64,000 bases of DNA. Origin: Calditrichota bacterium. Its GTDB lineage: Bacteria; Calditrichota; Calditrichia; Calditrichales; Calditrichaceae. This document shows positions 2,344 through 45,445 of the stretch, one piece after another (positions within the stretch are counted from its first letter, which is position 1; each line of letters begins with the position of its first letter). Location of the stretch: positions 1-64,000 of the forward strand of contig JAJRSO010000075.1 of NCBI GenBank assembly GCA_024278755.1, read 5' to 3'. A program made the position numbers and the translations under genes. The notes under the pieces were generated by a model. The model was not told the origin of the DNA. It did not search any database and saw nothing but the letters and a program-made list of their open reading frames with translations.

Positions 2344-3540
2344 TTATAATTTTGCAATAACAGCATCAGCCATCTCTTTGGTAGACGCCGCGCCCTTTTC
2401 AACCACGTCCGCCCGTCCTGACATTTTGGCCATATCGTAAGTTTTTACTTTCCCTTCGGCAACCACATCAGCTACGGCTTTACGGATTTTCGCAGCAATT
2501 TCGTTTTCATCGATAAAATCCAGCATCATACAAGCCGATTCAATCATGGCAATCGGGTTGACGATAGAGGTTTCATAATCCGCGTATTTTGGCGCGCTGC
2601 CGTGGGTGGGTTCAAACACGCCAATGCCGGAATCGGGATTATACTGCGCGCTGCAGGCAAAGCCCAGTCCGCCAATGAGTCCAGCAAAACCATCGGATAC
2701 GATATCACCGAACATATTACCGGCTACGATGACGCCGTAAGTTTCCGGGTTTTTGGTCAGCCACATCATCTGGGCGTCGATGTTTGTGTTCCACAGCTCG
2801 ATTTCCGGATAGTCTGCTTTCTGAATTTGCTGCGCCATTTTGTACATCATTCCGGATGTTTCGCGAATCACATTGGGCTTTTCGCAAACGGTCACCGATT
2901 GATAGCCGTATTTTTTAGCGTGGGCAAAAGCGGCGCGTACAATCCGTTCGGTGGCATTTTTGGTAAAAATACGGGTGGAAATGGAAAGCTCCTCTTTTGG
3001 TGTATCGCCGAAATTTTTGACGAATTTGGGATGAGTCAGTAATGCTTCGTGTACCTGTTCCGGAGGATTGCTCCATTCCACACCGCCATACAGACCTTCG
3101 GTATTCTGGCGGAAAATAGCTACGTCCACTTCCGGTTCTTCAATGGCGTTGCCCTGGCCTCGGCGGATAAAATTCAGCGGGTTGCCCTTGTAGGTGCGGC
3201 AAGGGCGCAGACAAATATCCAGATTAAAATGCTGGCGCAGCCCCACAATGGGACTGGAATACACCAGATTTTTTTCTTTGAGTTAAGGCGCCAGTTCTTC
3301 AAAAGCTTCGTCTTTGGGTTTGGATGTGATGGCGCCAAACAGCCCGATTTTATGTTTTTCAAGCAAGTCGATGGTACGACGGGGCAGGGGATTCCCTTCT
3401 TTACGCCAGAATTCCCAGCCGATATCGCCTTCCACATAATCCGCTTCAAAGCCTGCGGCGTCTAACACGCGGATGGCTTCTTCCAATACGGTTTTACCAA
3501 TCCCGTCGCCGGGCATTGCTACGATTGTTCTTTTTGACAC
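2344..3540 (-). pseudogene. Isocitrate/isopropylmalate dehydrogenase family gene with in-frame TAA
   Basis: The gene starts at a GTG (3540) nine bases after a perfect AGGAGG. The first 85 codons carry the GDGIGKTV nucleotide-binding start of the family. A TAA at 3283-3285 (codon 86) interrupts it, and the same frame then runs uninterrupted to 2344 with FRQNTEGLYGGVEW, the KPNV motif, the NMFGDIVSD loop and THGSAPKYA. These are hallmarks of NAD-linked isocitrate dehydrogenases. Bridged, it would encode about 398 residues, the family's usual size. The stop falls in a stretch that reads ELAP-stop-LKEKN, where relatives have Pro-Glu-Leu, so GAA to TAA is the likely change. Its place among citrate genes fits oxidation of isocitrate. 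Whether it is a true pseudogene, a sequencing error or a translated readthrough gene is open. Confidence 0.85.
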
Positions 3541-3563
3541 GTTTATTTCCTCCTAATTTATGG

Positions 3564-4015
3564 GCCACCGAAAGCACGGAAGGACACCGAAGTTATAAAA
3601 GATTTAGAATACCATTCTTTTAAATTCAAGTTTGTGTTTGCCGAAATTTAACAAATAACCCACTTTAATGTTTGTCGCTTTCAAATAATTAAGCAACTGA
3701 GCTTCGTGAGCTGTGTTTAGTTGCTTTTCGGCCTTTAGTTCTAAGATAATTTTATTCTCTACATACAAATCTGCCCGATAGTCACCTGCAATTTTTCCTT
3801 AATAAACAACCTGAATAACCGCTTGTCGTTCCACCTGAAGTCCGGCATTTTCAAGTTCATATTTTAGGCTGTTTTCATACACTTTTTCCAGGAAACCATA
3901 ATCCAATGTTTTATGAACTTCAAAAGCACAATCAATAATTTTATCAGACAAATTTTTTTCATAAATCATTTTTCCATCCTTTATGAATTCGATGTCCTTC
4001 GGTGTTTTCGGTGGC
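3564..4015. repeat. Inverted repeat pair enclosing the GxxExxY gene
   Basis: GCCACCGAAAGCACGGAAGG... (3564-3592) and the reverse complement of 3991-4015 (GCCACCGAAAACACCGAAGG...) match at nearly every position over about 25 bases. They frame the GxxExxY gene exactly, with only tens of bases between gene ends and arms. Similar arms without a gene lie at 5501-5570 and, more diverged, at 36243-36317. The arrangement looks like a small gene-bearing element and its gene-less relatives. Confidence 0.65.
3604..3969 (-). pseudogene. GxxExxY family protein gene with in-frame TAA
   Basis: From ATG 3969 the frame encodes the GxxExxY signature (GFLEKVYENSL, about residues 29-39) and the ADLYVENKIILELKA core (about residues 66-80) typical of this small family of about 120-130 residues, related to PD-(D/E)XK-like folds. 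A single TAA at 3799-3801 (codon 57) splits it within VVY-stop-GKIAGDYRADL, where relatives carry Glu or Lys. The rest of the frame is open to 3604 and the total length is normal. It sits between the HD gene and the dehydrogenase gene, inside the inverted repeat 3564-4015, and interrupts an otherwise metabolic operon. Function of the family is not established. Confidence 0.85.
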
Positions 4016-4024
4016 TATTATTAT

Positions 4025-4561
4025 TTATTTTACCAATTCAAAATCAATAAAATCCACGTGATGGAAAATGATGGATTCCGGTGACCGTTTTTCGCCGGCC
4101 GCTTCTTTGGAATGGGTGGCAATCACGTGCATCACTTCCGAAGGCAGTCCGTGTTTAAAGGCCAGTCCAACCCCGCTAAAGGGATGGCGGATGTGTTTAC
4201 CGTAATCGCTTTTATAAACGGTACCGTCTTCTTTTTTTGCGAATTCCAGCAGTTTGCCCACATCGGCCAGCAGGGAACCGGCTATCAGATAATCGCGGTT
4301 GACTTTGGTTTTGCGTGCGCCGTAAGCTTCCTCCAGAACTTTGTCGCAGGCTACGCCCATCCGGCAGCAGGTGCGCACGTGCTCGATGAACATAATGTTT
4401 ACGTTATCGGCCAGCAGGGTAAAGGGAATGCTCATCAACTCTTCGTTGGTCCAGTTGCGGTAGGCAATGGCCTCTTCCCAGCAGGCGATGACCTTATCTT
4501 GCAGCTCCGTATCCTGTATTTCCTTAATTTCAGGAAGTAGTTTGAGTACTTGTTCTCGCAT
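4025..4561 (-). CDS. HD-domain-like protein with altered HD motif
   Basis: A 178-residue helical protein with an HD-phosphohydrolase layout: His in FIEHVRTC, then LLADVGK (about residue 98) where the canonical motif is LLHDIGK, then RHPFSGVGLAFKHGLP, IATHSKEA and FHHVDFIDFE. The Asp of the HD pair is kept, but the His before it is Ala. Further His and Asp ligand candidates are present, so metal binding may survive. I place the start at the second ATG (4561) because AAGGGA lies six bases upstream; the ATG at 4576 has no such site. It lies about 130 bp after the citryl-CoA lyase gene on the same strand and is probably co-transcribed. A regulatory or nucleotidase role is possible; the substrate is unknown. 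Confidence 0.75.
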   Translation of the reverse strand: MREQVLKLLPEIKEIQDTELQDKVIACWEEAIAYRNWTNEELMSIPFTLLADNVNIMFIEHVRTCCRMGVACDKVLEEAYGARKTKVNRDYLIAGSLLADVGKLLEFAKKEDGTVYKSDYGKHIRHPFSGVGLAFKHGLPSEVMHVIATHSKEAAGEKRSPESIIFHHVDFIDFELVK

Positions 4562-4589
4562 TTGTTGTCCCTTCATTATTTTAGTTTAT

Positions 4590-4690
4590 AGTTGTTGGGG
4601 TTTCAAGTTATTGAGTTATTAGGTTGTTAGGTTACTGAGTTGTTTAACGGATATCTGTAAGCGATTATTCTATCTAATAACTTAACAACT
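4590..4690. repeat. GTTATTGAGTTATTAGG-type intergenic repeat
   Basis: A run of related 7-9 base words (GTTATTGAG, TTATTAG, GTTGTTAG, GTTACTGAG) is followed by the complementary words AATAACTTAACAACTAATT, so the region can fold back on itself. The same word set appears at 9625-9745 and, in part, at 18510-18555. It fills the gap between the citryl-CoA lyase and HD genes. Confidence 0.5.
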
Positions 4691-4692
4691 AA

Positions 4693-5472
4693 TTAACTAA
4701 GCTCCCGTTCTTCCGGCCCGTCGTATTCCACGTCCGTGGGATGAATTTTGCGCATGGGCTTCATCCGTGTTTTTTCTTCGTAAATGTGAGCCACCAATCC
4801 CGGCACGCGGGCAATCATAAAAAAGGCATTGGCCAAAATGGGGTCGAAATCCATTTCGCAGAGCAGGGCGGCGATGGCCCCATCCACATTTAATGGCAGA
4901 TGTTTGCCGGTGGTTTCTTTGAGCGCGGAAACAAACGCTTGAGCCAACGTGACATAATCGCCGGCAATACCCAGTTCTGTGGCGATGCCGAATAATTTAG
5001 GCGTGCGCGGATCGTTGGTATGCACGCGGTGCCCGAATCCCGACAGGCGTTTTTTTACCGTTCGGTAATCGCCAATTACCTGTTTTGCGGCTTCATCCGG
5101 TGTTTTGTTTTCGTTTTTTACAAGTTCCATACCCTGTTTTAAAATGAGCATACAGTCTTCGATGGCCCCGCCGTGAAATTTGGAAATAGATAGGATGCCG
5201 GCGGCAACGGCTGCGTTCAGCGGGGCTCCGGTGGAAGCCACGGTAAGCGCGCTTAAAACCGAAGGCGGGGTGGTGCCGTGGTCTACGGAAGAAACCAGAA
5301 TGGTTTCTATCATTTTGCCGATTTTTTCGGACGGCATTTCGCCTTTGAACAATAAATATACCATTTGCGCGTAACTGACTTTGCCCATCAGCTCGTCTAA
5401 TTTATAGCCGCGCACAGACAGTTTGTTCGGCTCTACTTTTGTAATGGCCGATTTCCAGTGTAGGTCACTCAT
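4693..5472 (-). CDS. Citryl-CoA lyase (short citrate-synthase family)
   Basis: A 259-residue protein, the short type of the citrate synthase superfamily used as citryl-CoA lyase; true citrate synthases have about 370-430 residues. Catalytic landmarks are visible: a GGAIEDCM segment where synthases have GPLHGGA, the active-site loop GFGHRVHTNDPRTP (about residue 155), and LPLNVDGAIAALLCEM followed by RVPGLVAHIYEEK near the C-terminus. ATG 5472 follows GGAG by six bases, which decides the start. It should cleave citryl-CoA to oxaloacetate and acetyl-CoA, or run the reverse. A CitF-type CoA-transferase is encoded divergently at 7070, giving a route to its substrate. It is preceded by the TrmB-like regulator on the same strand. 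Confidence 0.85.
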   Translation of the reverse strand: MSDLHWKSAITKVEPNKLSVRGYKLDELMGKVSYAQMVYLLFKGEMPSEKIGKMIETILVSSVDHGTTPPSVLSALTVASTGAPLNAAVAAGILSISKFHGGAIEDCMLILKQGMELVKNENKTPDEAAKQVIGDYRTVKKRLSGFGHRVHTNDPRTPKLFGIATELGIAGDYVTLAQAFVSALKETTGKHLPLNVDGAIAALLCEMDFDPILANAFFMIARVPGLVAHIYEEKTRMKPMRKIHPTDVEYDGPEERELS

Positions 5473-5500
5473 GTTTTTCTCCAATTATTATTTTTCTTTA

Positions 5501-5570
5501 GCCACTGAAATCACCGAATTACAAAATCCGGTTTAAATAAAATTCTCTACTGTTCGGTGTGCTCTGTGGC
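5501..5570. repeat. Gene-less inverted repeat related to the GxxExxY flanks
   Basis: GCCACTGAAATCACCGAATT (5501-5520) and TTCGGTGTGCTCTGTGGC (5553-5570) are imperfect inverted repeats about 32 bp apart. They match the arms around the GxxExxY gene in sequence (GCCAC-GAAA-CAC-GAA) but enclose no gene. The element fills the space between the regulator and the lyase gene. Confidence 0.55.
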
Positions 5571-5579
5571 AACATATTT

Positions 5580-6347
5580 TTAACCTAAATCAAAAATCCC
5601 CTCCGCTTCTTTGCCGAATTTTTTCAGCATGCGGATGGAATAAATATCGTGAATAATATAATCTTTTGCTAACAGCACCAGCCCTTTGTTGGACGTCCAG
5701 GCCGCCGAGCTGGAACCGTCTTTTAAAAAATGCCCCAACACCACTTTCTTATCGTCCACAATCAGGGCGATACGTCGCCCGCCGCGCTGGATACGAATTT
5801 GATGCTCGTTACCGTGAATGTATTCATTGCCTCTATCCAGAATCTTTTTGCCAAAATGCACCACCGTCAGTTTAACCCCGGCGGCGTCGGCCTGCAACAG
5901 CGCTTCGCGAATTTCATCCACCTCTTCATCCCAGACCGACAGGTACAGATGTTCCTTTGCTTCGCCGATAAAGTCGGTGAGCTTGCGGATGATTTCACTG
6001 CGCCCGCTTAAATTCCAGATATAACTCTCCGAAGCTTCGTCCTGAGCGTACAGGTGGCCCAGTTTCTCGTTGAGGCTGTCCATTGTTTGCAGGTAATCGT
6101 TTTTATAACGGGACAGAATTTCTTCGGGCGGTAACGGCACATATTTTGTGGGGTCGGAATCGATGGCCAGAATCATCTCCTTGTCGGTGAGCTTGTTTAG
6201 AATCTGGTAGATTTTGGAAGCGGGCACGCCGGAAATTTTGGCTAATTCGTATCCGGTAATTTTTGATTGCTGCAGAAGCGCCAGGTAGACCTGAGACTCG
6301 TACTGCGTGAATCCGATGTTCTGCATCAAAGAAATTATTTTTTTCAT
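5580..6347 (-). CDS. TrmB-family transcriptional regulator
   Basis: 255 residues. The N-terminal winged helix is the TrmB type: GFTQYESQVYLALL (about residues 12-25), then a recognition region around SGVPASKIYQILNKL (about 39-53) and a wing ending in PLPPEEIL. A short coiled segment leads into a C-terminal ligand-binding domain of the phospholipase-D-like fold seen in TrmB proteins (IWNLSGRSEIIRKL and the DDKKVVLGHF strand). It is the first gene of the minus-strand citrate set and faces citF across a 720-bp gap. A perfect-looking palindrome 29 bp upstream (6376-6397) is a candidate operator, suggesting autoregulation and control of the citrate genes. The effector is unknown; citrate or a CoA ester is a guess. 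Confidence 0.85.
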   Translation of the reverse strand: MKKIISLMQNIGFTQYESQVYLALLQQSKITGYELAKISGVPASKIYQILNKLTDKEMILAIDSDPTKYVPLPPEEILSRYKNDYLQTMDSLNEKLGHLYAQDEASESYIWNLSGRSEIIRKLTDFIGEAKEHLYLSVWDEEVDEIREALLQADAAGVKLTVVHFGKKILDRGNEYIHGNEHQIRIQRGGRRIALIVDDKKVVLGHFLKDGSSSAAWTSNKGLVLLAKDYIIHDIYSIRMLKKFGKEAEGIFDLG

Positions 6348-6375
6348 CTTGCCCTTTCCGGCCCGAATTGTTTAT

Positions 6376-6397
6376 ATTCTCTACCCGGGTAGTGAAT
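6376..6397. promoter_or_regulatory. 22-bp palindrome, candidate TrmB-family operator
   Basis: The half ATTCTCTACCC is followed directly by GGGTAGTGAAT, its complement with one mismatch, centred at 6386/6387. It lies 29 bp upstream of the regulator's start codon, where an autoregulatory operator would sit. No second intergenic copy was noticed in the window; a similar string at about 6917 is inside the ATPase remnant and is probably chance. Confidence 0.55.
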
Positions 6398-6497
6398 AAT
6401 TTAAACAGGTTGTTTTAGGGATTCAAATAAATTTTTTTAAACACGAAAAAACAGACTTAAGGCGGATATAATCGACAATGGCTGTTTCGAGATTTAA

Positions 6498-6977
6498 TTG
6501 GCTTCCGGCAGCCGTTTAATTTACGGATATTATCCGGAAGTGGTGACAAGCGCCGGTGAAGAGCAGGATGTTTTATCGCTTTTGACAAGCAGTTATTTGT
6601 ATAAAGACCTGTTTGCCGTGGAACAGTTAAAAAAGCCGGTTTATTTGGAAAAACTGCTTCAGGTTTTGGCTTTGCAGATTGGCGGAGAAGTTTCGTATAA
6701 TGAGCTGGTACGGTTTGTGGGCGCGGACAATCAAACCATAGAGCGCTATATCGATTTACTGGAAAAAGCTTTTATCGTTTTCCGCTTACAGACTTTAAAC
6801 CGCAATATGCGTCAGGAAATTGACTATATCGAAGAATACGACGGCATATTGCACGCTTACGAATTTAAATGGAACCCGGTACAAAAGGTACGCTTTTCGA
6901 AAACCTTTACCAACGCCTACCCGGGCAGCGAAACAAAAGTAATCTCGCAGGAAAATTATATAAATTTTTTAACGTAG
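6498..6977 (+). pseudogene. C-terminal remnant of a DUF4143-type ATPase
   Basis: The frame matches the C-terminal half of the RLIYGxYPEVV-type DUF4143 ATPases: RLIYGYYPEVVTS at its beginning, SSYLYKDLFAVE, the winged-helix-like VSYNELVRFVG...TIERYIDLLEKAFIVFRL, then RQEIDYIEE and EFKWNP near the end. The ATPase domain is absent and a stop precedes the first codon. In addition, intact relatives have about 60 residues between LNRN and RQEIDYIEE (the KIYF...GIRNALI part) that are missing here, so there is an internal deletion. It lies in the gap between the divergent regulator and citF. It is of a different subtype from the N-terminal remnant at 124-603, so the two are not halves of one gene. 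Confidence 0.75.
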
Positions 6978-7069
6978 CAGCTAAAATAGTAAAAAACACA
7001 AATGAAAAACGGACTTTTTGCCGTTTGCTATTTGTACCTTGGAATTTAAAAGAAAACCGTGAGGTAAAT

Positions 7070-8617
7070 ATGAAGTTAGAAAAAAACGTTTTGGGCCGTG
7101 AAGTCCCAACGGAAGTCAACGGCCGGCCGGCGACCCCTTTTCAGGGAATCGGTAAATTTCAGCCGAAAGGCCGCAAAGCGGGCGCGCCTATCCCCAGCGG
7201 CGCGAATTATAAATCCAGTAAAGTATTGGATAGCATCGACGCCGCTCTGAATAAAATGAACCTTTTTGACGGGATGACCATTTCCTTTCACCACCATCTG
7301 CGAAACGGGGATATTCTGGTTAATTTGGTTGTACAAAAATTAGCCGACCGCGGCCTTAAAGATATTGTGCTGGCGCCCTCGGCCCTGTTTCCGGTGCACG
7401 AACCGCTGGTGCGGCACATTAAAAACGGAACCGTTTCCCACGTGCTCGGTTCCATGAACGGACCGGTGGGACGTTTGTGTACGACCGGCGGAATGAAAAA
7501 GACGGCTGTTCTGCGTTCCCACGGCGGACGATACCGCGCCATTCAGGACGGCGATTTGCATATCGACGCCGCTTTTATTTCCGCGCCCACCGCCGATACC
7601 CACGGCAACGCCAACGGTGTGCTGGGTAAGTCTGCCTGCGGCCCGCTGGGCTTTGCCTTAGCCGATTCCCTGTATGCCGACCAGGTGGTGATTGTAACCG
7701 ATAACCTGGTGCCCTTTCCCACCTTTCCCTGGTCCATCGAAGGGGGCAATGTGGATTATGTGGTGAAAGTGGATTCGCTTGGCGACCCGCAAAAAATCGT
7801 TTCCGGCACCACCCAAATTACCACCGACCCCACCCGCTTGAAAATCGCCTCCATGGCCGCGCAGTTGGTACGGGACAGCGGAATGATTTACGAACCGGAA
7901 TTTTCCTTTCAGGCCGGGGCCGGCGGAATGTCTCTGGCCTTTATCCGGTACGTAGCCGAATATATGCGCGCTAAAAACGTAGTGGCCGATTTCGTACGCG
8001 GCGGTTCCACCAAAACCCTCACCGATATGCTGGATGAAGGTCTGACTAAATTTATTCTCGACGGACAGTCGTTTGATTTGGCCGGCGTGGCTTCCCTGCG
8101 CGATAACGTTAACCACATCGAAACCAATCCTTTTGTTTCTTATAATTATCACACAAAAGGCTGCTTTGCTCCGCGGGTAAAAGCGTCCGTTCTGGGCGGC
8201 ACCGAGGTGGATTTGGATTTTAACGTCAATGTGAACACCCATTCGGATGGTTGGCTGCTGCACGGCATCGGGGGGTTTCAGGACGCGGCCGACGCCGAGA
8301 TGACTATCATTACCGCGCCGCTGTACCGTAAAAGCAACCCCATTGTAGTGGAAAAGGTCGTCACGGTCACGGCCCCCGGCGCATCCATCGACGCTATCGT
8401 AACGGACGCGGGCATTGCCATTAATCCCAATCGGCAGGATTTGTTAGACCGGTTGAAAGATTCCGACCTGCCGCTTGTGCGTATCGAAGAGCTGCACGAA
8501 AAGGCCATTGCCATTACCGGCAAACCGGCCGCTTTTAAAACCAAAGACAAGGTGGTGGCGGTTATCGAATGGCGGGACGGCACCCTTATTGATTCGGTAA
8601 AAGAACTGGATGTTTAA
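7070..8617 (+). CDS. citF: Citrate lyase alpha subunit / citrate CoA-transferase
   Basis: 515 residues, close to the roughly 510 of CitF. Conserved blocks are FDGMTISFHHHLRNGD (about residues 66-81), RSHGGRYRAIQ (about 145), AFISAPTADTHGNANG, the FPTFPWSIEGGNVDYVVKVD block with the candidate catalytic Glu, and HSDGWLLHGIGG. CitF transfers the acyl-carrier or CoA group to citrate. The ATG at 7070 follows a GTGAGGT ribosome site; an upstream extension of the frame overlaps the ATPase remnant and is not coding. No citD, citE, citC, citG or citX gene is present in the window. With a separate citryl-CoA lyase 1.6 kb away on the other strand, it may use free CoA rather than an acyl carrier protein; that is inference. 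Confidence 0.9.
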   Translation: MKLEKNVLGREVPTEVNGRPATPFQGIGKFQPKGRKAGAPIPSGANYKSSKVLDSIDAALNKMNLFDGMTISFHHHLRNGDILVNLVVQKLADRGLKDIVLAPSALFPVHEPLVRHIKNGTVSHVLGSMNGPVGRLCTTGGMKKTAVLRSHGGRYRAIQDGDLHIDAAFISAPTADTHGNANGVLGKSACGPLGFALADSLYADQVVIVTDNLVPFPTFPWSIEGGNVDYVVKVDSLGDPQKIVSGTTQITTDPTRLKIASMAAQLVRDSGMIYEPEFSFQAGAGGMSLAFIRYVAEYMRAKNVVADFVRGGSTKTLTDMLDEGLTKFILDGQSFDLAGVASLRDNVNHIETNPFVSYNYHTKGCFAPRVKASVLGGTEVDLDFNVNVNTHSDGWLLHGIGGFQDAADAEMTIITAPLYRKSNPIVVEKVVTVTAPGASIDAIVTDAGIAINPNRQDLLDRLKDSDLPLVRIEELHEKAIAITGKPAAFKTKDKVVAVIEWRDGTLIDSVKELDV

Positions 8618-8674
8618 TATCATTTGTGGGGAACGGCAAATTTGCCTTCCTCAAAAATATGTTTGGAAAAATTC

Positions 8675-8706
8675 ATAGTAGGGAACGCCGATGCGTTCCC
8701 TACTAT
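8675..8706. repeat. Perfect 14-bp-stem hairpin
   Basis: ATAGTAGGGAACGC at 8675-8688 is perfectly complementary to GCGTTCCCTACTAT at 8693-8706 with a CGAT loop. It lies between citF and the DUF1684 lipoprotein gene. There is no T-run after it, so a repeat palindrome that may slow transcript decay or termination is more likely than a classical terminator. Confidence 0.7.
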
Positions 8707-8717
8707 TTGGGGGACCA

Positions 8718-9620
8718 ATGAAAATTTTAATAAAACCGTTGATTTTTCTTTTCGCCCTTCTAATCATGACTTCAGCTTGTAAGCAGAATAAACCCGCCCA
8801 ATCCTACGAAGCGAAAATTAATGAATGGCATAAAAAACGCGAGCAGTCGCTTACAAAAAAAGATAGCTGGCTGAGTCTATCCGGGCTGTTCTGGTTAAAT
8901 GAAGGCGAAAACACCTTTGGCTCGGATAAAAGCAATCAAATTATTTTTCCCGAAAAGGCGCCGGCTTTCATGGGCGGTTTTTATGTGCGCGCCGGGAAAG
9001 TAAAAGTGATTCTAAAAAAAGAGTCGGGCGTAACCATCGACGGGAAATCCATTCCGGAAAAAACACTTGTCCCCGATGTGGACGGCGAGCCCACGCTTTT
9101 ACAGTATGGCAGCCTGAGCTGGTATGTAATTAAACGCGGCGATAAATTTCTGATTCGTTTAAAGGACAGCGAAAGCCCGGCCCTTTTAAATTTTACGGGC
9201 GTCGAGCGCTATCCGGTGGCTAAAAAATGGCGGGTAAAAGCGCGCTTAAAACCATACGATCCACCCAAAAAACTGAAAATTGCCAATGTGCTGGGGCAGG
9301 TATCCGAGACGGACTGTCCGGGCGTGCTGCTGTTTGAAATAGAGGGCAAAACATACCGTTTAGAGCCGGAAGGCAAACGCGGCGATAAAAAATGGTTTCT
9401 TAATTTTTCCGATGAAACCAGCGGACGCGAAACCTACGGCGCCGGCCGCTATCTCGTACTAGACGTCCCGGATGAAAAGGGCGATACCCATATCGATTTC
9501 AATAAAGCGTACAATCCGCCCTGCGCCTTTTCGCCGTACGCCACCTGTCCGCTGCCGCCGAAAGGGAATCATTTATCTGTAAAAATTACGGCAGGGGAGA
9601 AAGACTACGGACATCATTAA
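8718..9620 (+). CDS. DUF1684 lipoprotein
   Basis: 300 residues with a lipoprotein signal peptide: a hydrophobic stretch (LIFLFALLIM) and a TSAC lipobox putting the lipid-bearing Cys near residue 21. The mature part has the DUF1684 features: SWLSLSGLFWLNEG (about residues 50-63), FYVRAGKV, the GVERYPV turn, and the ending YNPPCAFSPYATCPLPP. The domain is predicted to be mostly beta and its function is unknown. I start at ATG 8718, right after the hairpin at 8675-8706; a longer frame upstream runs through that hairpin and is unlikely to be translated. It stands alone between repeats on both sides. Confidence 0.85.
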   Translation: MKILIKPLIFLFALLIMTSACKQNKPAQSYEAKINEWHKKREQSLTKKDSWLSLSGLFWLNEGENTFGSDKSNQIIFPEKAPAFMGGFYVRAGKVKVILKKESGVTIDGKSIPEKTLVPDVDGEPTLLQYGSLSWYVIKRGDKFLIRLKDSESPALLNFTGVERYPVAKKWRVKARLKPYDPPKKLKIANVLGQVSETDCPGVLLFEIEGKTYRLEPEGKRGDKKWFLNFSDETSGRETYGAGRYLVLDVPDEKGDTHIDFNKAYNPPCAFSPYATCPLPPKGNHLSVKITAGEKDYGHH

Positions 9621-9624
9621 AGGA

Positions 9625-9745
9625 TTGGTTATTGAGTTTTTAAGTTGTTAGGGGAAAATCTGTTCGTGCTTTGTATCAAAACCTTCGTTGATTAATAACT
9701 TAATAACCGAATAACTTGGGTAACTCAACAACCAATAACCCAACA
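9625..9745. repeat. GTTATTGAGTTTTTAAGTTG-type intergenic repeat
   Basis: The left part (GGTTATTGAGTTTTTAAGTT) is complementary in words to the right part (AATAACTTAATAACC, AACTCAACAACCAATAACC). It belongs to the same family as 4590-4690. It fills the whole gap between the DUF1684 and UPF0489 genes. Confidence 0.5.
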
Positions 9746-9752
9746 GCAAACA

Positions 9753-10481: not shown

Positions 10482-10572
10482 AAAATTGCAAATGTGAACA
10501 GAATCACTTTTTTTCATACAAATTAGATGTATTTATGTACAAATAAACTACTTAACACAGGGGATAATAAAA

Positions 10573-11238: not shown

Positions 11239-11335
11239 ATATGCGTTGCTTCTTTGCAGAAACAGTTGCGTTTTAACTCGTTCGTTTTGTACCTTATTGC
11301 TCGATTTCCCGATCAACCTAACCAAAGGAGAGCAG

Positions 11336-21660: not shown

Positions 21661-22308
21661 ATGGCAATCATGTTTCGAACCACCAAAGCGCTGGAAAGCG
21701 AAATCGATGAATATCTTGATGATGTGAGTCAGGGTGCGCTGGTATTTGTGCAGGGTGTAAAAAACTATATGAATGAAAATAAATCCAGTTTTGAAACGCA
21801 CCTGAAAACCATCGATAAGCTGGAAGGAAAGGCCGACGCGTTGCGTCGTAAAATCGAAAACGATTTATATCTGCATTCGCTGATTCCGGAACACCGCGGG
21901 GATGTGCTCGGTTTGCTGGAATCCATGGACGATGTGATTGATACCGCCAAAGTCACCTTAAACCAGTTTGACGTGGAGCATCCTTATATTCCAGAACAGT
22001 TTAAACCGCGCTATATCGAACTGGCCGAAACCACCAGCAAGGCGGCGGAAGCGGTGGTGCTGGCCACTCGCGCGTTCTTTAAGGAAGTTAAACTGGTAAA
22101 GGATCATTTGCATAAAGTCTATTTTTATGAACAGGAAGCGGACAAACAGAGCGACCAGATCAAGCGGGACGCTTTTGCTCTGGACGATTTGGAATTATGC
22201 TAGAAATTTCATCTGCGCTATTTTGCGTTACACATCGACACTCTGGCCGATATGGCCGAGAGTGTGGCCGATCGCCTTTCCATTTATACCATTAAAAGAA
22301 CCATTTAA
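21661..22308 (+). pseudogene. DUF47 (PhoU-like) phosphate transport accessory gene with in-frame TAG
   Basis: From ATG 21661, 180 codons encode a PhoU-like helical bundle typical of DUF47 proteins paired with Pit permeases: EDVSQGALVFVQG-like opening, LEGKADALRRKIENDLY, and SMDDVIDTAKVTL. A TAG at 22201-22203 (codon 181) follows LDDLELC, and the same frame continues KFHLRYFALHIDTLADMAES to TAA at 22308, which is the conserved C-terminal helix of the family. Bridged length is 215 residues, as expected. Without the last helix the bundle would be incomplete. The gene ends 12 bp before the Pit gene, itself frameshifted, so both parts of this phosphate system carry lesions. Confidence 0.88.
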
Positions 22309-22320
22309 GCCAGGTTTATT

Positions 22321-23810
22321 ATGATATTTATTTTTTTAACAAGCGGATTGTTTTTAGGCTGGTCGCTCGGCGCCAATGATGCGGCAAATGTATTCGGCAC
22401 GGCGGTGGGTACACGGATGATCCGTTTTAAAACAGCCGCCATTATCGCCAGTATTTTTGTTGTTATCGGTGCGGTAATCGGTGGAGCCGGGGCAACCCAC
22501 ACATTGGGCAACTGGGTGCGGTAAATGCTCTTGCCGGATCGTTTATTGTGGCGTTTGGGGCGGCTTTTACCGTAGCCTGGATGACCAAACTACGTTTGCC
22601 GGTTTCCACCTCTCAGGCCATCGTGGGCGCTATTATCGGCTGGAATATGTTTTCAGGTTCTATCACGGATACGAATTCTTTAACAAAAATTATTTCCACC
22701 TGGGTGCTTTGTCCGGTTCTGGCGGCCGCTTTTGCCATGTTGCTTTTTTATGCCTTCCGGGGTGTGCTGGATAAAATGAATGTGCATTTATTGAAAATGG
22801 ATTTTTATACCCGCATCGGCCTGGTTTTGGTTGGCGCGTTTGGCGCTTACAGTCTGGGAGCCAATAATATTGCCAATGTGATGGGCGTTTTTGTACCGGT
22901 GGTTCCGTTCGAGCCCATAAATGTGTACGGATTTTTTACGCTTAATTCCGCACAGATTTTATTTTTTATCGGTAGTCTTGCCATTGGTTTGGGAATTTTT
23001 ACCTACTCCTATAAAGTAATGGATACGGTTGGCGGCGGTTTATTAAAGCTTTCGCCGGTGGCGGCGCTTATTGTTGTTTTATCGGAATCCCTGGTTCTGT
23101 TTTTATTCTCATCCGAAGGGCTGGAAGCCTGGCTCATCAGCCACGGTTTGCCCAGTATTCCCCTGGTTCCCGTTTCCAGTTCGCAGGCGGTGGTTGGCGC
23201 TATCATCGGAATTGGTCTGGCTAAAGGCGGGCGGGGGATTCGCTTTGGCGTTTTGGGAGAAATTGCGGCCGGATGGGTTTCTACCCCGATTGCTGCTGGA
23301 ATACTGACCTTTGTTTCGTTGTTTATCTTTCAAAATGTATTTAATCAGCAGGTGAGTAAAAAAGTAGAATACTGTATTTCCGAACCGGTTATTGAGTATT
23401 TACAGGAAGAACAGCTCCCGGTCGAAAATCTGAAACAATTTAAGGACGTCGTCTTTACCAATTCCATTCATTTTAGTTCCCTAATTGAAAAAGATGCCCA
23501 ACTGAACGCCAGCCAGACATTCAAAGTTATTGAAGCTTCCAGGGTAAAGCCGCTCATTATTGATGCGGGACTTATCTCTTCCGAAGTGGATACGCACTGG
23601 TTTGCCCCGGGTCAGGTTGAAGCATTGAGGAAACTAACCGGTAAAGAGTATAAATACAACTGGCAACTGAAACAGGCGCTTCAGAAACTAAGCAGCGACT
23701 GGAAGCCGAAACCAAAAACAAAAAAGAATAAACTGTACAATAAAGATCTCAAGAAAAAATTAAATCAGCTTTACCGAATTTTTGCGATCCAAACTCAAAT
23801 AGAACCTTAA
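22321..23810 (+). pseudogene. pit: PiT-family phosphate permease with one-base frameshift
   Basis: The N-terminal signature GANDAANVFGTAVGT (about residues 18-32) and the second-half copy GANNIANVMGVF identify an inorganic phosphate transporter. The first frame ends at TAA 22522-22524 after LGNW, but from 22515 the +1-shifted frame continues GAVNALAGSFIVAFGAAFTV, exactly the expected family sequence. One base is missing near 22513, where AAC-TG-GGT should read AAC-NTG-GGT. Downstream everything is open to 23810. After the last helix there is a charged cytosolic tail of about 150 residues (from FNQQVSKKVEY) not usual in short Pit proteins. It is followed 14 bp later by an OprP-type porin gene. 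Confidence 0.88.
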
Positions 23811-34811: not shown

Positions 34812-36167
34812 ATGAAGCAAATTTTGGTTCTGGGAGCAGGGAAAAGCAGTCCCTATTTAATTTCATATTTACTCGACCAGGCAGAACAGAACGACTGGTA
34901 CGTAACGGTTGCCGATATGGATTTGGAATTGGCCAAAAGCCGTTTGGGCGGCAGCGCGCGGGGCAGCGCCATTCGTTTTGATATAAACGATTCGGAAATG
35001 CGTTCCTCTCATATTCAAAAATCGGACGTGGTGGTAAATATGCTGGCGCCCCGTTTTCAACATCTCGTGGCCTTAACCTGTGTGCGCATGGGCAAGCATA
35101 TGGTTTCGGTTTCGTACGAAGATATCCGCATGCGCGATTTGGCCCGCGACGCCTAACGCAAAGGCGTTTTAATGCTGACGGAAATCGGGCTTGACCCCGG
35201 TATTGATCATATGTCCGCCGCTCAGATGATCCAAAAAATTCGGGAAAAAGGCGGTAAAATAACGAGTTTTGAATCATACGGCGGCGGGTTGCCCGCACCG
35301 GATACGCTGAGCAATCCCTTTAAATATGTGATCAGTTGGAATCCGCGCAATGTGGTCATGGCCGGAGAAAACGGCGCGCAGTATCTGGAAAAGGGAAAGA
35401 TTAAAATCATCCCCTGGCATAATGTCTTTCAGAGTACCTGGCCGCTCGAAGTGCCGGGCGTCGGAATGATGGAAGCCTATCCCAACCGTGATTCGCTGAG
35501 CTACCGCGAACGCTACGGGTTTAAAGACGCCGATACGGTTATCCGCGGCACGATTCGCTATCCGGGCTGGTGCGAAACCTGGGCGCAGATTCAGCGTTTG
35601 GGATTGCCCAACGAAAAGATGCGCATCCCCAATTTAAAAGAGAGAACCTTTGCCGAATTAACGGAAATGTTTTTGCCGCTTTCGGTAGGAACACAGACCA
35701 GCATTGACAAACGGGTGCCTCGTTTCTTAAATATCAATCCCACCGGAAAGATTATGGAAAAGATGCGCTGGCTGGGTTTGTTTTCCGATGAAAAAATCGG
35801 TATGGATGTGGAAACCTCGGCCGAAGTGCTGACCCATATTCTGGCCGATAAACTGCGGCTGCGTGATGACGCCCGCGATATGGTGATTTTACTGCACCGC
35901 CTGATTGCCGAATATCCGGACGAAGAAAATCGAAAAGAAGAAATCGTTTCGACCATGCTGCATTATGGCGAAAAGGCCGGTTTTACATCCATGGCCAAAT
36001 CGGTTGGTCTGCCGGCCGCTTTAGTCGTAAAACTTCTTCTTCAGAAAAAGCTTCCGCTGGTGGGCTGTCATATTCCGACTCATCCAATGATTTACAATCC
36101 GTTAATGGAAGAATTGGAGCAGGAAGGATTTGTGTTTAACGAACAGGTAAAAAAAATAGATAGCTGA
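34812..36167 (+). pseudogene. Saccharopine dehydrogenase family gene with in-frame TAA
   Basis: AAAGGAATAAAAG precedes the ATG. The first 114 codons hold the Rossmann start VLGAGKSSPYLISYLL (about 5-20), DMDLELAKSR and NMLAPRFQHLVALTC. A TAA at 35154-35156 (codon 115) follows LARDA, and the frame continues RKGVLMLTEIGLDPGIDHMSA, the diagnostic saccharopine reductase block, through FESYGGGLPAP and RYPGWCETW to 36167. Bridged length about 451 residues fits the glutamate-forming/LYS9-like enzymes that split or form saccharopine. Relatives have Gln, Lys or Glu at the stop position. It could serve lysine breakdown; no lysine-ketoglutarate reductase is seen nearby. All else in the frame is intact. 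Confidence 0.87.
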
Positions 36168-36242
36168 CAGCTCTATTAGTGAATACGAATCGTTGCTGTA
36201 GGTTATTCCTGAAATTTATCAGGAATTTTTGAGTTCACTATA

Positions 36243-36317: not shown

Positions 36318-36357
36318 GAAATCAAGGGCTATGCCTTTTTAGACTGGACTCATTCAT

Positions 36358-36396: not shown

Positions 36397-36403
36397 CTAA
36401 ATT

Positions 36404-36893: not shown

Positions 36894-37014
36894 TTATTAA
36901 GAAAGACAGTTAACATATATGCACATTCTTTTTCTGTTTTCTTATCAACCGACTTTTTCCTATATTCTGTTACTCTCTTTTTTAATGACTAAAAATCAAT
37001 AAAAGGCGGTTTTT

Positions 37015-38211: not shown

Positions 38212-38294
38212 TAAAAAGCATTTGATAAGTGATTATTTTCCGATGGGAATTGACTATTCAATAAAGATAAGATTGTATTTACAATAGAGTTTTA

Positions 38295-38909: not shown

Positions 38910-38911
38910 AT

Positions 38912-39832
38912 ATGGGAAAAAATGTTTTAAGCGTTAAGGGCGTATACAAAAATTTTTTCGGTAAACCGGCCGTGGAAAATTTGTCGTTTAACGTTCAGGG
39001 CGGAGAAACCTTTGGCTTGTTGGGCCCGAACGGCGCCGGTAAGACAACGGCGATGCGTATGATTATGAATATAATTGTGCCGGACGAAGGTGAAATCCTC
39101 TTAAATGATGAGCCGAGAAAATCCCTGAAAACGAACCGTTTCGGCTATTTGCCCGAAGAGAGGGGATTATATCCGGGAGCGATTGTACTGGAAATGCTGA
39201 CCTATTTCGGAACGCTGAACAATTTATCGCGCCGCAAGGCGGAGGTCGAGGCCATCCGCTATTTAGACCGGTTGGGAATGGTGGAATATACCGATAGCCG
39301 CATTAACCAGCTTTCCAAAGGGATGCAGCAGAAGATCCAATTTATCGCCGCTTTTTTACATGATCCGGATGTGCTGATTTTAGACGAACCGTTTACCGGT
39401 CTGGACCCCATCAATCAAATTGTGTTACGGGAAATGCTGCAGGAGTATAAACAGAAAAAACGGATTTTAATCATCTCCACCCATCAGATGGAACAGGCCG
39501 AAAACATATGCGATCACATCTGCCTGATTAATCAATCCCGGGTCATATTAAACGGCCGGCTCAGCGCCATCAAAAAGAAAAACCGTGAAAATGCGTACGT
39601 GGTGGAATCGGACAGCAGCCTGGAATTTATGAATTCTTTCCCGGAAATCAACATTCTTGAAGCCGGAAATACCAGTTACAAATTTACCCTAAAAGACGAT
39701 AAAATGGCCGTTTCCGGTCTGCTGAAAAAGATTGAATCACAAGCGGATATAAAAAAACTTGAAGTTGTCGAGCCCTCGCTGCACGATATTTTCATTAAAA
39801 AGATCCAGGAACAGTCAAAGGACAAAGAATGA
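38912..39832 (+). CDS. ABC transporter ATP-binding protein (NatA type)
   Basis: 306 residues. Walker A LLGPNGAGKTT (about 34-44), a Q-loop region in FGYLPEERGLYP where the Gln is replaced by Glu (common in this exporter subfamily), the signature QLSKGMQQKIQF (about 133), Walker B VLILDEPFTGLDP and the switch His in STHQMEQAE. A C-terminal extension of about 90 residues (DUF4162-like) ends the protein. It should power the permease encoded next, whose start overlaps its stop by four bases (ATGA). Likely export of ions or small hydrophobic compounds. Confidence 0.93.
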   Translation: MGKNVLSVKGVYKNFFGKPAVENLSFNVQGGETFGLLGPNGAGKTTAMRMIMNIIVPDEGEILLNDEPRKSLKTNRFGYLPEERGLYPGAIVLEMLTYFGTLNNLSRRKAEVEAIRYLDRLGMVEYTDSRINQLSKGMQQKIQFIAAFLHDPDVLILDEPFTGLDPINQIVLREMLQEYKQKKRILIISTHQMEQAENICDHICLINQSRVILNGRLSAIKKKNRENAYVVESDSSLEFMNSFPEINILEAGNTSYKFTLKDDKMAVSGLLKKIESQADIKKLEVVEPSLHDIFIKKIQEQSKDKE

Positions 39833-41331
39833 AAAATCTGTTTCGCATCGCCCGTTGGGAATTTATTACCCGTTTTCGTTCCCGGTCGTTTTTGTTTAAT
39901 ACCTTTATTTCTCCGTTGCTGTTCACCGCGGTAATTACGCTGCCCATCCTGTTTTTCAGTTATACGCCGGAAGTGTCCACAAAGCTGGTGGGAGTAATCG
40001 ATTTATCCGGGAAAGATTTAGCCAAGGATTTACAAAAACGTCTAAACCGTAAATACCGGCTGGAAAACAGCTCGCGCGAATATGTGATATTAAAGGTATC
40101 GGTAAATAATTCGCAGCCTTATAAAGAGGTGTTGGCCGAATACCGCGATGCCGTGCACTACCGGGATTCGGTTACAATGGTTTACAATCGCATTAAAGAA
40201 CAACGCACCGAATATTATAAAAATACTCATATCCCAAACCGGGAATACTTCTTAAAAACGTCGTACGAAACGCTGCAAACCAGCCGGGAGGAAAAAGAAT
40301 TAGCAGAAATCGAATTGGAAGGCTATAAAACGGCGTTGGACTCGATGTATAAATTTGAAGCGCAAAAAACGGCCGATTCGCTTTTGGCTTCGGATGTGTT
40401 GAACACCTACCTGCTGTTTCCGGATGATTTTACCAGCCGCGGCATTCTGGAATACCATTCAAAAAATCCCGGAGACCTGCGGGAAACCGAACGCTTTGAA
40501 AAAATACTGCAATCCATTATAATCGAAAAACGCATTCTCGAAGATAATGTGGGACGCCCGAAAGTGAAAAAATGGCTGAGTCCCATAAAAATTCAAAAGT
40601 ATCAACTTTTCCCCGACGGCCAAACCGAATGGAATTTTTACGCCCAGTTTTACGGCCCGCTAATCGGTGTATTTTTATTGTTTATGGCTGTTTTTACATC
40701 CGGCGGATATTTATTTAGCAGCGTGCTGCTGGAAAAATCAAACCGGGTCATTGAGGTACTTTTGTCATATGCTTCCAGCCGCCAGTTAATGGGCGGAAAA
40801 ATTTTAGGACTGGGCTTTTTGGGATTGGTTCAGGTACTCACCTGGCTAACGGTGGCGGCGCTGCTGGCGGTTTCGAATATTATTCCCGTGAGCAAAATAA
40901 ATTATATGAATTTTACTAACGCTCTCTATTTTCTCATTTATTTCAGTTTAGGCTATCTCTTTTACGGGGCGATTTTTATCACCATCGGCTCCATTTCGTC
41001 CAATGAATACGACGCCCAACAGATCAACCAGATGCTGCGTACCATCGCCATTTTTCCGGTGCTGCTGTCTCTGGTTGTTTTGGCGGAGCCCAACGCGGAC
41101 TGGATTCGGGTTTTAAGCTGGATTCCGTTTCTTACGCCCTCTTTTATGATTATGCGCATTCCGTTAAGCGGCATACCCATCACCGGTGATATTTATCTGA
41201 CCATAATTATTATGCTGGTTTCCATTGTCCTGGTTATTCTTATCGCGGGGCGGATGTTCCGAGCGGCCACCCTCATGCAGGGAAAGCGTCCGGCCTTTTC
41301 GGAAATAATGCACTGGATTCGGGTTAAATGA
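39829..41331 (+). CDS. ABC transporter permease (NatB / ABC-2 type)
   Basis: 500 residues. One N-terminal helix (FISPLLFTAVITLPILFF), then a large extracytoplasmic domain of about 240 residues, unusually rich in charged helix (EKELAEIELEGYKT), then five or six helices in the C-terminal half (FYAQFYGPLIGVFLLFMAVF, ILGLGFLGLVQVLTWLTVAALL, ALYFLIYFSLGYLFYGAIFI, TIAIFPVLLSLVVL, IYLTIIIMLVSIVLVILIA). The VLLEKSNRVIEVLLS segment after the first core helix is typical of NatB permeases. Works with the overlapping ATPase gene upstream. Confidence 0.92.
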   Translation: MKNLFRIARWEFITRFRSRSFLFNTFISPLLFTAVITLPILFFSYTPEVSTKLVGVIDLSGKDLAKDLQKRLNRKYRLENSSREYVILKVSVNNSQPYKEVLAEYRDAVHYRDSVTMVYNRIKEQRTEYYKNTHIPNREYFLKTSYETLQTSREEKELAEIELEGYKTALDSMYKFEAQKTADSLLASDVLNTYLLFPDDFTSRGILEYHSKNPGDLRETERFEKILQSIIIEKRILEDNVGRPKVKKWLSPIKIQKYQLFPDGQTEWNFYAQFYGPLIGVFLLFMAVFTSGGYLFSSVLLEKSNRVIEVLLSYASSRQLMGGKILGLGFLGLVQVLTWLTVAALLAVSNIIPVSKINYMNFTNALYFLIYFSLGYLFYGAIFITIGSISSNEYDAQQINQMLRTIAIFPVLLSLVVLAEPNADWIRVLSWIPFLTPSFMIMRIPLSGIPITGDIYLTIIIMLVSIVLVILIAGRMFRAATLMQGKRPAFSEIMHWIRVK

Positions 41332-41421
41332 GCGGATTTTTAAAACGTGTTTTTATACGTAATGAACACTTAGAGTAAAAATCATTTAAATGCTTTACCT
41401 TCTTTGCGGTTAGCTTTTTAA

Positions 41422-43326
41422 CTAAAAAATCAGTTCCGCCTGAAAGCGTAATTCCCGAATTCGCGATCCCCGGTAAGCGGTTTTGCCATAGCGTTTTAAA
41501 TAGCGCAGTTTAAGCCACAGACGAATGGATTCCGCCGGCTGTGCGCGTAGCATTAAATACCACTTTTGCCCTTTTCCATATAGCGCGTAATTGGCAAAAC
41601 TTCCCGGTAGATCGTTTTCATATTCATATAAAGCCGAGCGAAACGAATAGCTCTGAAAAAATGTGATTCGGGAATAAAGAGCAAGTTTCGGGGTAAAGGA
41701 ATATCTGAAATCCTGGAAAATGTAAATTCCGTGTTCTCTGTCCAAATTAAGATGAGTGTATGCCACTCTGCTTTGCAGACGGAAATTTTTATCCGGCGTC
41801 CATTTATAATGCAGGCGGTAAATGGTTTGTATCTCTTCGCCTAAAAAATCTTTTTCGCCCGGCGCGGAAACAAGACGGGATTTTTGCCGGATGCGCAGGG
41901 TAATCTGTTTTTTAGGAAACGAATAGTTTCCCTCGAGCAGCCATTCATCTTTAAGCCCGGGCAGAGAGTTAAACCAGCCCCGCCATAAATCTTTTACAAA
42001 GAATTTATAAGTTTTCAATGTAAAGAAAGCGAATGGTTTTATTTTAAAAGCCAGATACAAGCCCTGCTGAGCCGATGGAAAGGGATTGCTGTCGTCGAAT
42101 ACCGTGCCCCGAGGAGACTGAAAATTTTTACTCAGCCGCCAATAGGAGACGCCAAACTGAAAACGATCCCAGCGAAAGAATAGTTTTTGAGAAAATCCGG
42201 GCGTCCCTTTATCCGAAGCGCTCAACTCACCCGAAGCATCGACCGACTTTCCGTGCGTGTTGTAACTAAAACTCATCTGATTTAAACGGCTTCCTGAAAA
42301 ATGAAAATACCGTCGTCGTAAATCGGAGTTGGAAACATACGGAGAAGTAAACTGAATGGACGGGTTGTAGCGGTAGCGGCACAGGAGCAGGGATGCGTTT
42401 AAACCGTAACCGGCAGGGAACGAAACCGCGGCCACCGTAATTTGTTCGAACAGGCGATTCTTTGCCGCCGTTTCGGAAATTGTACGATGGTAACCCGTAT
42501 AACGGATGCCGGTAACCGTTTCATTGTTTGTATCCAAACGGGCGTCCAGATAATTACCGGATGCAAACAAGTGCACTTCAATATTGTTTTGGAAATGCCT
42601 GTTTAAATACAGACCAAATAAACCACTGTTCTCGGCAGAGCTAAGACTCGGCGCTGCCCGCGTTTTTAAACGGCGCAAAGGATTTAGCACCATGGCGCTT
42701 TTTTGGGTGGAATACGGATTAGAAAAGGCAAGTCCCTGCCCAAACTGAAAATGAAACTGGCCCAGAATTAATTTCCAGCGTTCTGATTTATACGAGATAA
42801 ACGCGCTGTAAAAATCTAACAGACTTTCTTCGCCCACATCTTTCTGCGTGATAAATCCGGCAGAAGTATTTTGATTAACGGAATAGCGCAGTTTGGTTTT
42901 GTTATACCATAATCCACCGGGATATTTTTGTGCAGTTTTACCGGGGTCGAGTGGATAATAATTTTTTTGTGTCAGATATCCGCGCTTTGATTTATGGCGA
43001 GAAACAGTGAAAAAAGGTTTTAAGACAGCATATAATTCCGGCCCCAGTATTTTTCTCAGCGGCCGCCTGCTTTTAAAAACGCCTTTACGCTTGCGGTACG
43101 AGAGAATGCTATCGATTTGCGCAGCCGGTAAAAAGGGAATTTCCGCAAGTTCCTCCCTATCCGCAAAATTTAGAGAAACCGGATTTTCCGATATGCGCTG
43201 TAATCGTTCAACAATGGAAACATCATCGCCGTTCATTTCCGTCCAGACAGTTAGAAGAGAGTCGATCTGCGCTACGGCCGGCCGCGTACAAGCAAGTAAA
43301 AAAATAATAAAGAAATACGTCTTCAT
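41422..43326 (-). CDS. Helix-hairpin-helix domain and outer-membrane barrel protein
   Basis: 634 residues with a signal peptide ending AVAQ. Residues about 30-110 hold ComEA-like helix-hairpin-helix repeats: NPVSLNFADREELAEIPFLPAAQIDSILSYR and FKSRRPLRKILGPELYAVLKPFF. The remaining 500 residues alternate in barrel fashion and are rich in Arg, Tyr and aromatic pairs (WKLILGQFHFQFGQGLAFSNPY, FSYNTHGKSVDASGELSASDKG, YSFTPKLALYSRITFFQ) and end in RFQAELIF, a C-terminal Phe. This HhH-plus-barrel arrangement is found widely in the Bacteroidetes/FCB group; a DNA-contacting role at the surface is suggested by the HhH part but unproven. Convergent with the ABC permease gene. Confidence 0.8.
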   Translation of the reverse strand: MKTYFFIIFLLACTRPAVAQIDSLLTVWTEMNGDDVSIVERLQRISENPVSLNFADREELAEIPFLPAAQIDSILSYRKRKGVFKSRRPLRKILGPELYAVLKPFFTVSRHKSKRGYLTQKNYYPLDPGKTAQKYPGGLWYNKTKLRYSVNQNTSAGFITQKDVGEESLLDFYSAFISYKSERWKLILGQFHFQFGQGLAFSNPYSTQKSAMVLNPLRRLKTRAAPSLSSAENSGLFGLYLNRHFQNNIEVHLFASGNYLDARLDTNNETVTGIRYTGYHRTISETAAKNRLFEQITVAAVSFPAGYGLNASLLLCRYRYNPSIQFTSPYVSNSDLRRRYFHFSGSRLNQMSFSYNTHGKSVDASGELSASDKGTPGFSQKLFFRWDRFQFGVSYWRLSKNFQSPRGTVFDDSNPFPSAQQGLYLAFKIKPFAFFTLKTYKFFVKDLWRGWFNSLPGLKDEWLLEGNYSFPKKQITLRIRQKSRLVSAPGEKDFLGEEIQTIYRLHYKWTPDKNFRLQSRVAYTHLNLDREHGIYIFQDFRYSFTPKLALYSRITFFQSYSFRSALYEYENDLPGSFANYALYGKGQKWYLMLRAQPAESIRLWLKLRYLKRYGKTAYRGSRIRELRFQAELIF

Positions 43327-43706
43327 CGTGTTTGGCTAAACATCTGCAATAGAAAACACAGATGTGGTTTTGATCTATTCTTTGTTAATATAAAAGTAAA
43401 ATGATTCGACAGATTCAGTTCAGAAAGATGAATTTATTATCTGCACAAAGGAATAAACATTTTTTCCTTAAATTCTAAAGTACAAATATCAAGAATCACT
43501 TTGTAGCTGCATGTTTGAATTTAATAAAATTTAAGTTACATAAAAAAAGTTGCTCAAATATACAAGGGGAAATGCCGAAACGAAATAAAAATATAAAAAA
43601 GCAACAGGATAGAAACGTGTTACGCTGAAAAAAAATTAAGTAAATCTTCAGTTGAATTTTTTAGCGGAAACCAGTACTATTGTACGCAATCATAGGAGGA
43701 CATATT
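43327..43706. other. AT-rich gene-free region before the 43.7-kb operon
   Basis: No open frame looks coding. AAATTCTAAAGTACAAATATC (about 43471) resembles the AAATTCTAA...ACAAATA repeats at 55150 and 59300, and TTTGAATTTAATAAAATTTAAG follows. A GGAGGACATATT ribosome site lies at the right end before ATG 43707. A promoter probably lies here, but no clear boxes are seen. Confidence 0.4.
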
Positions 43707-44387
43707 ATGAAAAAAATTAAACTGCTTTTTGTCGTTCTGATTTTATCTTTTAGCGTTTCGCTTTGGGCGCAGGAAAAACAACCGCTACAAAAAAAGGCGA
43801 TGAACCTGACCTTTGAGAATATCGCCGTTGGAAAAATTCCGGCGAACTGGAAAGTGGAAGCAACGAACAAACGCACTCCTCTTGCAACCTGGCAGGTAAT
43901 AGAAGACAGCACGGCCCCTTCCGGGGAAAAGGTGTTGGCGCTGACCGGTTTCAATCAAACCTTTGGTGGTACGTTTAATCTTTGTTGGAACGATCGCGTT
44001 CAATTTCTGAACGGCTCCATTGCCGTCTACTTTAAGGCAAACAGCGGTTTGGAAGATGAGGGCGGCGGCGTCATCTGGCGAGCAAGAGACAAGGATAATT
44101 ATTATATTGCCCGCTACAATCCGTTAGAAGACAATTTTCGTATCTATTATGTGAAAGACGGAGCGCGCCGCATGCTGGCCAGCGCGCGCCTTAAACTGGC
44201 GGCGCATCAATGGCATTCGATGAAAATCGTGCAAAACGAAAACATAATCAGCGGTGTTTTAAACGGTAAAAAATACCTCGAAGTAGAGAACAAAACTTTC
44301 TCCAAGGCCGGTGGAATCGGTTTGTGGACCAAAGCCGATGCGGCAACCTCGTTTGATGATTTTTCCGTAGTGTCTCTAAAAAAATAA
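43707..44387 (+). CDS. Exported LamG/DUF1080-like jelly-roll protein
   Basis: 226 residues with a signal peptide ending SLWAQE. The mature part looks like a concanavalin-type sandwich of the 3-keto-disaccharide-hydrolase/DUF1080 kind: LTFENIAVGKIPANWKVEA (about 35-53), WQVIEDSTAPSGEKVLAL, GGGVIWRARDKDNYYIARYNP (about 127-147), HQWHSMKIVQNENIISGVLNGK and GGIGLWTKADAATSFDDF. It would sit in the periplasm or at the surface. AGGAGGACATATT precedes the ATG. It lies 30 bp before the iron-binding protein gene on the same strand and may be in its operon, though a functional link is not obvious. Confidence 0.75.
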   Translation: MKKIKLLFVVLILSFSVSLWAQEKQPLQKKAMNLTFENIAVGKIPANWKVEATNKRTPLATWQVIEDSTAPSGEKVLALTGFNQTFGGTFNLCWNDRVQFLNGSIAVYFKANSGLEDEGGGVIWRARDKDNYYIARYNPLEDNFRIYYVKDGARRMLASARLKLAAHQWHSMKIVQNENIISGVLNGKKYLEVENKTFSKAGGIGLWTKADAATSFDDFSVVSLKK

Positions 44388-44416
44388 CGAGTGTCTGAAA
44401 AAGGAGAAATATCCGG

Positions 44417-45445
44417 ATGAAGAAACGTTTGCGCTTTCTGTTTGTTTTATTGTTTGGTTTTGTCATTCTAACGGTTCAGTACGGATGTCGTAAAAAACAA
44501 GATAATCTGAAAACGGTTACGGTGTATGTTTCGGAAGACCAGATTTTTTCCGAACCGATTCTAAAGGATTTTGAAAAGGAAACCGGTATTAAAGTCCGGG
44601 CTGTTTACGATACGTAAGAGGCTAAAAGTACCGGTGCGATGAACCGCCTTATCGCCGAAAAGAATAATCCACAGGCGGATGTGTATTGGGCTAATGAGCC
44701 GATTCGGGCCGAAGTGCTAAAACAGAAGGGGATATCGGCTTCATACGTTTCGACAGCGGCAAAGGATATTCCGTCCGTCTTTAAAGATCCCGAAGGTTAC
44801 TGGACGGGTTTTTCCGCCCGGGCCCGGGTTCTTGTGATAAATAATAATGTAAAAAATAAACCTCAAACCATTTTGGCTTATACCGATTCCCGCTGGAGAG
44901 GGGAGGCGGTTATCGCCAATCCGTTGTTTGGAACCACCACCGCAGAAGTGGCCGCCCTGTTTACGGTTTGGGGTGATGAACGAGCCAAAGCCTTTATGGC
45001 CGCGTTAAAGAAAAATGAAGTGGCGATCTCTGCAAGTAACGGGGAAAGCGCTGACTTTGTTGCAGCCGGAGAGCGGGGGGTTAGCCTGGTGGATAGCGAC
45101 GACGCGGTTAACAGGATACGTCAAGGCAAAGCGGTTACGATGATCTATCCCGATCAAGAGGAGGAAGGACTGGGCTGCTTCATTGTGCCCAATGCCGCCA
45201 TTTTAATCAAAGGCGCGCCCCATCCCCGAACAGCGCGACGGTTAATTGATTATTTGCTTTCCAATGAAACGGAGCGCAAGCTGGCTTTTGCCGATTGTGC
45301 GCAGATTCCTTTGCACCCTGCGGTTAAAATCCCTCCGGAATTAAAACCCCTGAGCAAAATAAAAGTAATGCCGGTAAATTATGCCGATGTGGCAAAAAAG
45401 ATGGTCGAAATCCAGCCCTTTTTGAAAGCGTGGATGGGCTTCTAA
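44417..45445 (+). pseudogene. Fe(III) ABC transporter binding protein with in-frame TAA
   Basis: A signal peptide with a QYGC lipobox starts the frame, then VTVYVSEDQIFSEPILKDFEKETGI (about 35-59). TAA at 44615-44617 (codon 67) follows RAVYDT; the frame continues EAKSTGAMNRLIAEKNNPQADV, exactly the family block where relatives read YDTE. GAA to TAA is thus the likely change. The rest is open to 45445 with the ARARVLVINNN strand, ADFVAAGERGVSLVDSDDA and a normal ending. Bridged length 342 residues matches FbpA/AfuA-type proteins. The permease starts at the next base after its stop and the ATPase follows, so the whole import system is otherwise intact. Loss of this protein would disable iron uptake by the system. 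Confidence 0.88.

Follow-up and report, generated by a model that had tools for sequence, protein, structure and literature searches.

Within a 64,000-base window of a Calditrichota bacterium draft genome, five conserved genes of otherwise normal layout are each broken by a single in-frame stop codon, raising the question of whether these genes are decaying, are translated through their stops or are written wrongly in the assembly. The window comprises bases 1–64,000 of a 68,286-base contig, and the assembly is a 95.8% complete draft genome of 79 contigs and 3.94 Mb. A preliminary description, made from the window alone, had named recent pseudogenisation and an assembly or library artefact as the leading explanations and had ranked stop readthrough lower. 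The five stops that it had listed were all found in place by translation of the otherwise open frames (Table 1).

The homologues of the isocitrate/isopropylmalate dehydrogenase (IDH) family gene, 74–91% identical to it, stay open at the stop site, and the position is Glu in 54 of the 74 relatives with at least 80% identity, mostly as GAA; together with Glu in 4/4 homologues of FbpA, this bore out the earlier proposal that both stops stand where relatives have Glu. Compared with 83 homologues, the IDH gene had one private change, a conservative one. In the saccharopine dehydrogenase (SDH) gene the stop falls at the border of the NADP-binding domain, with the C-terminal domain directly after it (Pfam), and solved homologues align across it. 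An intact second DUF47 gene is present elsewhere in the genome (contig C36). Directly behind the interrupted DUF47 gene, and overlooked in the preliminary description, is a frameshifted PiT phosphate permease gene, of which the N-terminus is encoded in one frame to ...GATHTLG and the remainder, from GQLGAVNALAG, in another.

Table 1. Stop-interrupted and frameshifted genes of the window (plain coordinates) and further stop-interrupted genes of the assembly (locus:position)
Feature	Location	Strand	Observation
IDH family gene	2344..3435	-	one in-frame TAA; Iso_dh domain spans stop
IDH stop, TAA at Glu site	3283..3285	-	GAA/GAG in relatives
GxxExxY / PD-(D/E)XK_3 gene	3604..4014	-	one in-frame TAA; PDDEXK_3 spans stop
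GxxExxY stop, TAA at Lys site	3799..3801	-	AAA in nearest relative (L004)
DUF47 / PhoU_div gene	21661..22308	+	one in-frame TAG; PhoU_div spans stop
DUF47 stop, TAG	22201..22203	+	in-frame by translation
PiT phosphate permease gene	22321..23810	+	one-base frameshift at ~22,505-22,522; no restart
SDH gene	34812..36167	+	one in-frame TAA; Sacchrp_dh domain either side
SDH stop, TAA at variable site (K/T/I/E)	35154..35156	+	homologue comparison
FbpA-type iron-binding protein gene	44411..45445	+	one in-frame TAA; solute-binding domain spans stop
FbpA stop, TAA at Glu site	44615..44617	+	Glu in homologues
FtsK	L207:16433		internal stop, Glu site
LpxB	L190:6788		internal stop, variable site
TatD	L220:5813		internal stop, Glu site
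RND pump	L218:11700		internal stop, Glu site
Xaa-Pro dipeptidase	L168:7417		internal stop, Glu site
S9 peptidase	L122:9183		internal stop, Glu site
NifS-type desulfurase	L192:1343		internal stop, Glu site
Nucleotide-sugar dehydrogenase	L250:4231		internal stop, Glu site
NRPS	L251:14648		internal stop, Glu site
DUF2202	L236:8987		internal stop, Glu site
MglA	L163:2822		internal stop, variable site

To place the window in its genome, 2.02 Mb of the assembly was examined for reading frames with coding character on both sides of a stop, the candidates being then judged by homology. A strict codon-model scan recovered one of the five known sites, so the thresholds were lowered and homology was left to decide; an unfiltered stop search was swamped by antisense ORFs, and the choice of sites was partly made by eye. 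This yielded about 22 further single in-frame stops in conserved genes, scattered over many contigs in the 1.96 Mb outside the window, and for most of these cases a check showed a single family running across the stop or lying on both sides of it. From that frequency 0.7 stops would be expected in the window and five were seen (Poisson P ∼9e-4), a value that is inflated because the window had been picked for its stop-interrupted genes. The importance of a gene was no barrier to its interruption, as the stops struck both the only canonical ftsK of the assembly (the sole strong match) and its only lpxB. The earlier statement that housekeeping genes are intact thus holds for the window and fails for the genome. 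Frameshifts were rare, with about 2–3 against about 27 stops, namely that nonsense outnumbered frameshifts roughly ten-fold. A probable frameshift was also noted in a gamma-glutamyltranspeptidase-like gene (L119:17448), and a Mu Gam-like prophage gene (L116:2394-2420) has an internal TAA and a possible frameshift nearby.

The residue lost at the stops was strongly skewed towards Glu. Firm Glu sites were determined in 11 genes (IDH, FbpA, S9 peptidase, Xaa-Pro dipeptidase, FtsK, RND pump, TatD, DUF2202, nucleotide-sugar dehydrogenase, NRPS and NifS) and weaker ones in three (M20 peptidase, L153:9325 and L242:19710), while the one clear exception was the Lys of GxxExxY, and the sites of SDH, MglA and LpxB vary among homologues. 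The homologue residues at several stops were taken from plasmid-borne and solved-structure homologues, and the tally leaves out DUF47, YwiC and some other sites that had no readable residue. Glu at 14 of 18 sites has a probability of ∼1e-8 or lower under either uniform or transition-biased mutation with the genome's own codon use. Ordinary transitions should make Gln and Trp sites common, and none of either was found among the resolved stops. The Glu skew points to G-to-T changes (GAA>TAA and GAG>TAG). Even symmetric G-to-T change, under which Glu is expected for 54% of changes, gives P of 0.001 for 14/15 and 0.03 for 14/18, and Gly (TGA) and Ser/Tyr stops were fewer than symmetric G-to-T error predicts. 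A preference for a 5′-GA context could be the source of this Glu surplus. G-to-T error would also be expected to turn Asp into Tyr about as often, for which the homologue-wide comparison of private missense changes covered few aligned invariant positions.

The comparison with sister genomes that the preliminary description had proposed showed that every private TAA/TAG site for which a match existed is open in nine same-family genomes, including one of the same genus whose aligned segments are mostly 83–97% identical. Apart from their stops, the interrupted genes showed almost no sign of decay. At 434 invariant positions, taken together from IDH and three further genes of the window (PrpD-like, citrate synthase and the gene at 4025-4576), no private missense change was found, and one was found at 29 invariant positions of GxxExxY. 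A citrate-lyase-like gene (6869-8617) with many private changes was set aside, these reflecting probably homologues of a different clade and not errors; a stop in the IDH homologue of another genome (G008) was rejected as a second case since it is located at the gene's end. One same-family genome, G006, is a single contig of 4,978,541 bases, and a 400 kb sample of it contained perhaps 1–2 internal stops. One example, an in-frame TAG in a DNA methyltransferase gene (L136:5784), looks like a lost Trp codon.

Genuine recoding in this genome is restricted to TGA, as selenocysteine. A peroxiredoxin (L237:11760) carries an internal TGA at the peroxidatic Cys and a DUF3179 protein (L225:16656) another, both being TGA in relatives as well; SelD (L205:18820) has TGA at its Cys/Sec site, and a tRNA-Sec gene is present at L205:6603-6694. 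The DUF3179 family had been listed among selenoproteins before (PMC9312934). As selenocysteine codons, these three internal TGA codons were excluded from the stops counted here.

By contrast with TGA, decoding of TAA and TAG as Glu at the stop sites is very improbable, whether as dual-meaning stops or by suppression. Resolved sites that are nearly all Glu, full-length conservation downstream of the stops and the interruption of essential genes in an organism that must live are what such a reading would explain. Against it, no tRNA bearing a TTA or CTA anticodon could be detected: ARAGORN, run on about half of the genome, found no suppressor tRNA, and a pattern search for TTA/CTA-type anticodons gave two matches within 46 tRNA genes, which, when numbered canonically from the variable loop, are Lys(TTT) and Arg(TCT). 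The genome-wide look for suppressor tRNAs that had been advised thus came back empty for the 95.8% complete assembly, making Glu recoding unlikely and agreeing with the low rank first given to readthrough. The earlier remark that TAA is an ordinary terminator also proved right, as in a subset of 1.6 Mb it closes 518 of the 838 long ORFs; moreover, the relatives have no stops at the sites, and the sites share no sequence context. Glutamate reading of UAR with UAA also serving as stop is known from Blastocrithidia nonstop (PMC12153298), which resembles the present case in that TAA/TAG occupy Glu positions in-frame and genes still end in TAA. There, however, the reassignment is the code of the lineage, whereas the present stops are infrequent, occur in one assembly alone and have no detectable matching tRNA. 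A free-living bacterium would need to give TAA/TAG a second meaning, Glu, at a few dozen sites inside the genes of each genome, through an unrecognised tRNA or near-cognate decoding, with most of its genes still ended by TAA/TAG, and we regard this as a very slim prospect. The sole tRNA gene within the window is a tRNA-Asp (gtc) at 47980-48055.

The stops are probably base errors in the draft consensus, for the most part a T written in place of G, a technical origin to which the genome-wide scatter, the striking of indispensable sole copies and the single type of base change together most likely point. A G miscalled as T would convert the Glu codons GAA/GAG into TAA/TAG, and in the organism itself the genes would be unbroken. 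The errors would probably stem from guanine oxidised in the template DNA or in the library, and thin read coverage might let single damaged molecules fix the consensus. Between the two explanations that led the preliminary description, the artefact is the better supported, by the genome-wide Glu skew, the affected sole-copy ftsK and lpxB, the rare frameshifts and the intact relatives; the GxxExxY stop, which looks like AAA to TAA and not G to T, speaks against consensus error. Ordinary recent pseudogenisation of dispensable genes, the other of the two, fits poorly and is improbable: sole copies of the essential ftsK and lpxB are affected, nonsense is about ten times as frequent as frameshifts, Gln and Trp are absent among the resolved cases though transitions usually dominate, and beyond the stops the proteins are pristine, with hardly any further private change where residues are conserved. 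It would account for the neighbouring DUF47 and PiT permease genes, both broken with an intact second DUF47 to spare, and for these two genes, taken by themselves, the loss may be genuine. In recently host-restricted bacteria, many genes are likewise interrupted once with the rest intact, but their pseudogene load includes many frameshifts and deletions and spares essential genes; neither holds here.

It is unlikely that the sampled cells truly carried the changes as recent, still unpurged G-to-T mutations, whether through oxidative damage, a mutator, dying or relic DNA, or the assembler's choice of rare alleles, though this deserves more credit than gene decay or recoding. The stops are private to this genome and missing even from the same-genus one, oxidative mutagenesis yields a G-to-T skew, and the excess of Glu, with G on the coding strand, could reflect strand-biased damage. 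However, MutY and MutM are both intact and thus give no evidence of a mutator that lacks 8-oxoguanine repair; stops interrupt ftsK and lpxB in their sole copies, and elsewhere the interrupted genes show no sign of relaxed selection. As for the consensus errors, artefactual G>T is known to arise from oxidised guanine (8-oxoguanine; PMC12390751), and those artefacts share with the present stops G-to-T (C-to-A) changes that have no biological counterpart. They differ in being low-fraction mismatches in deep exome data, whereas here the changes would have reached a metagenome-type consensus and are known from the assembly alone.

A scatter of Glu-to-stop changes in a draft genome can be mistaken for gene decay on a mass scale or for a novel genetic code, which calls for caution in automated scans; a Glu-at-stop skew combined with interruption of sole-copy essential genes offers a cheap test for such an artefact that needs no reads. 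Should the stops be borne out by the reads, they would be a major finding on the genetic code or on mutation in this lineage.
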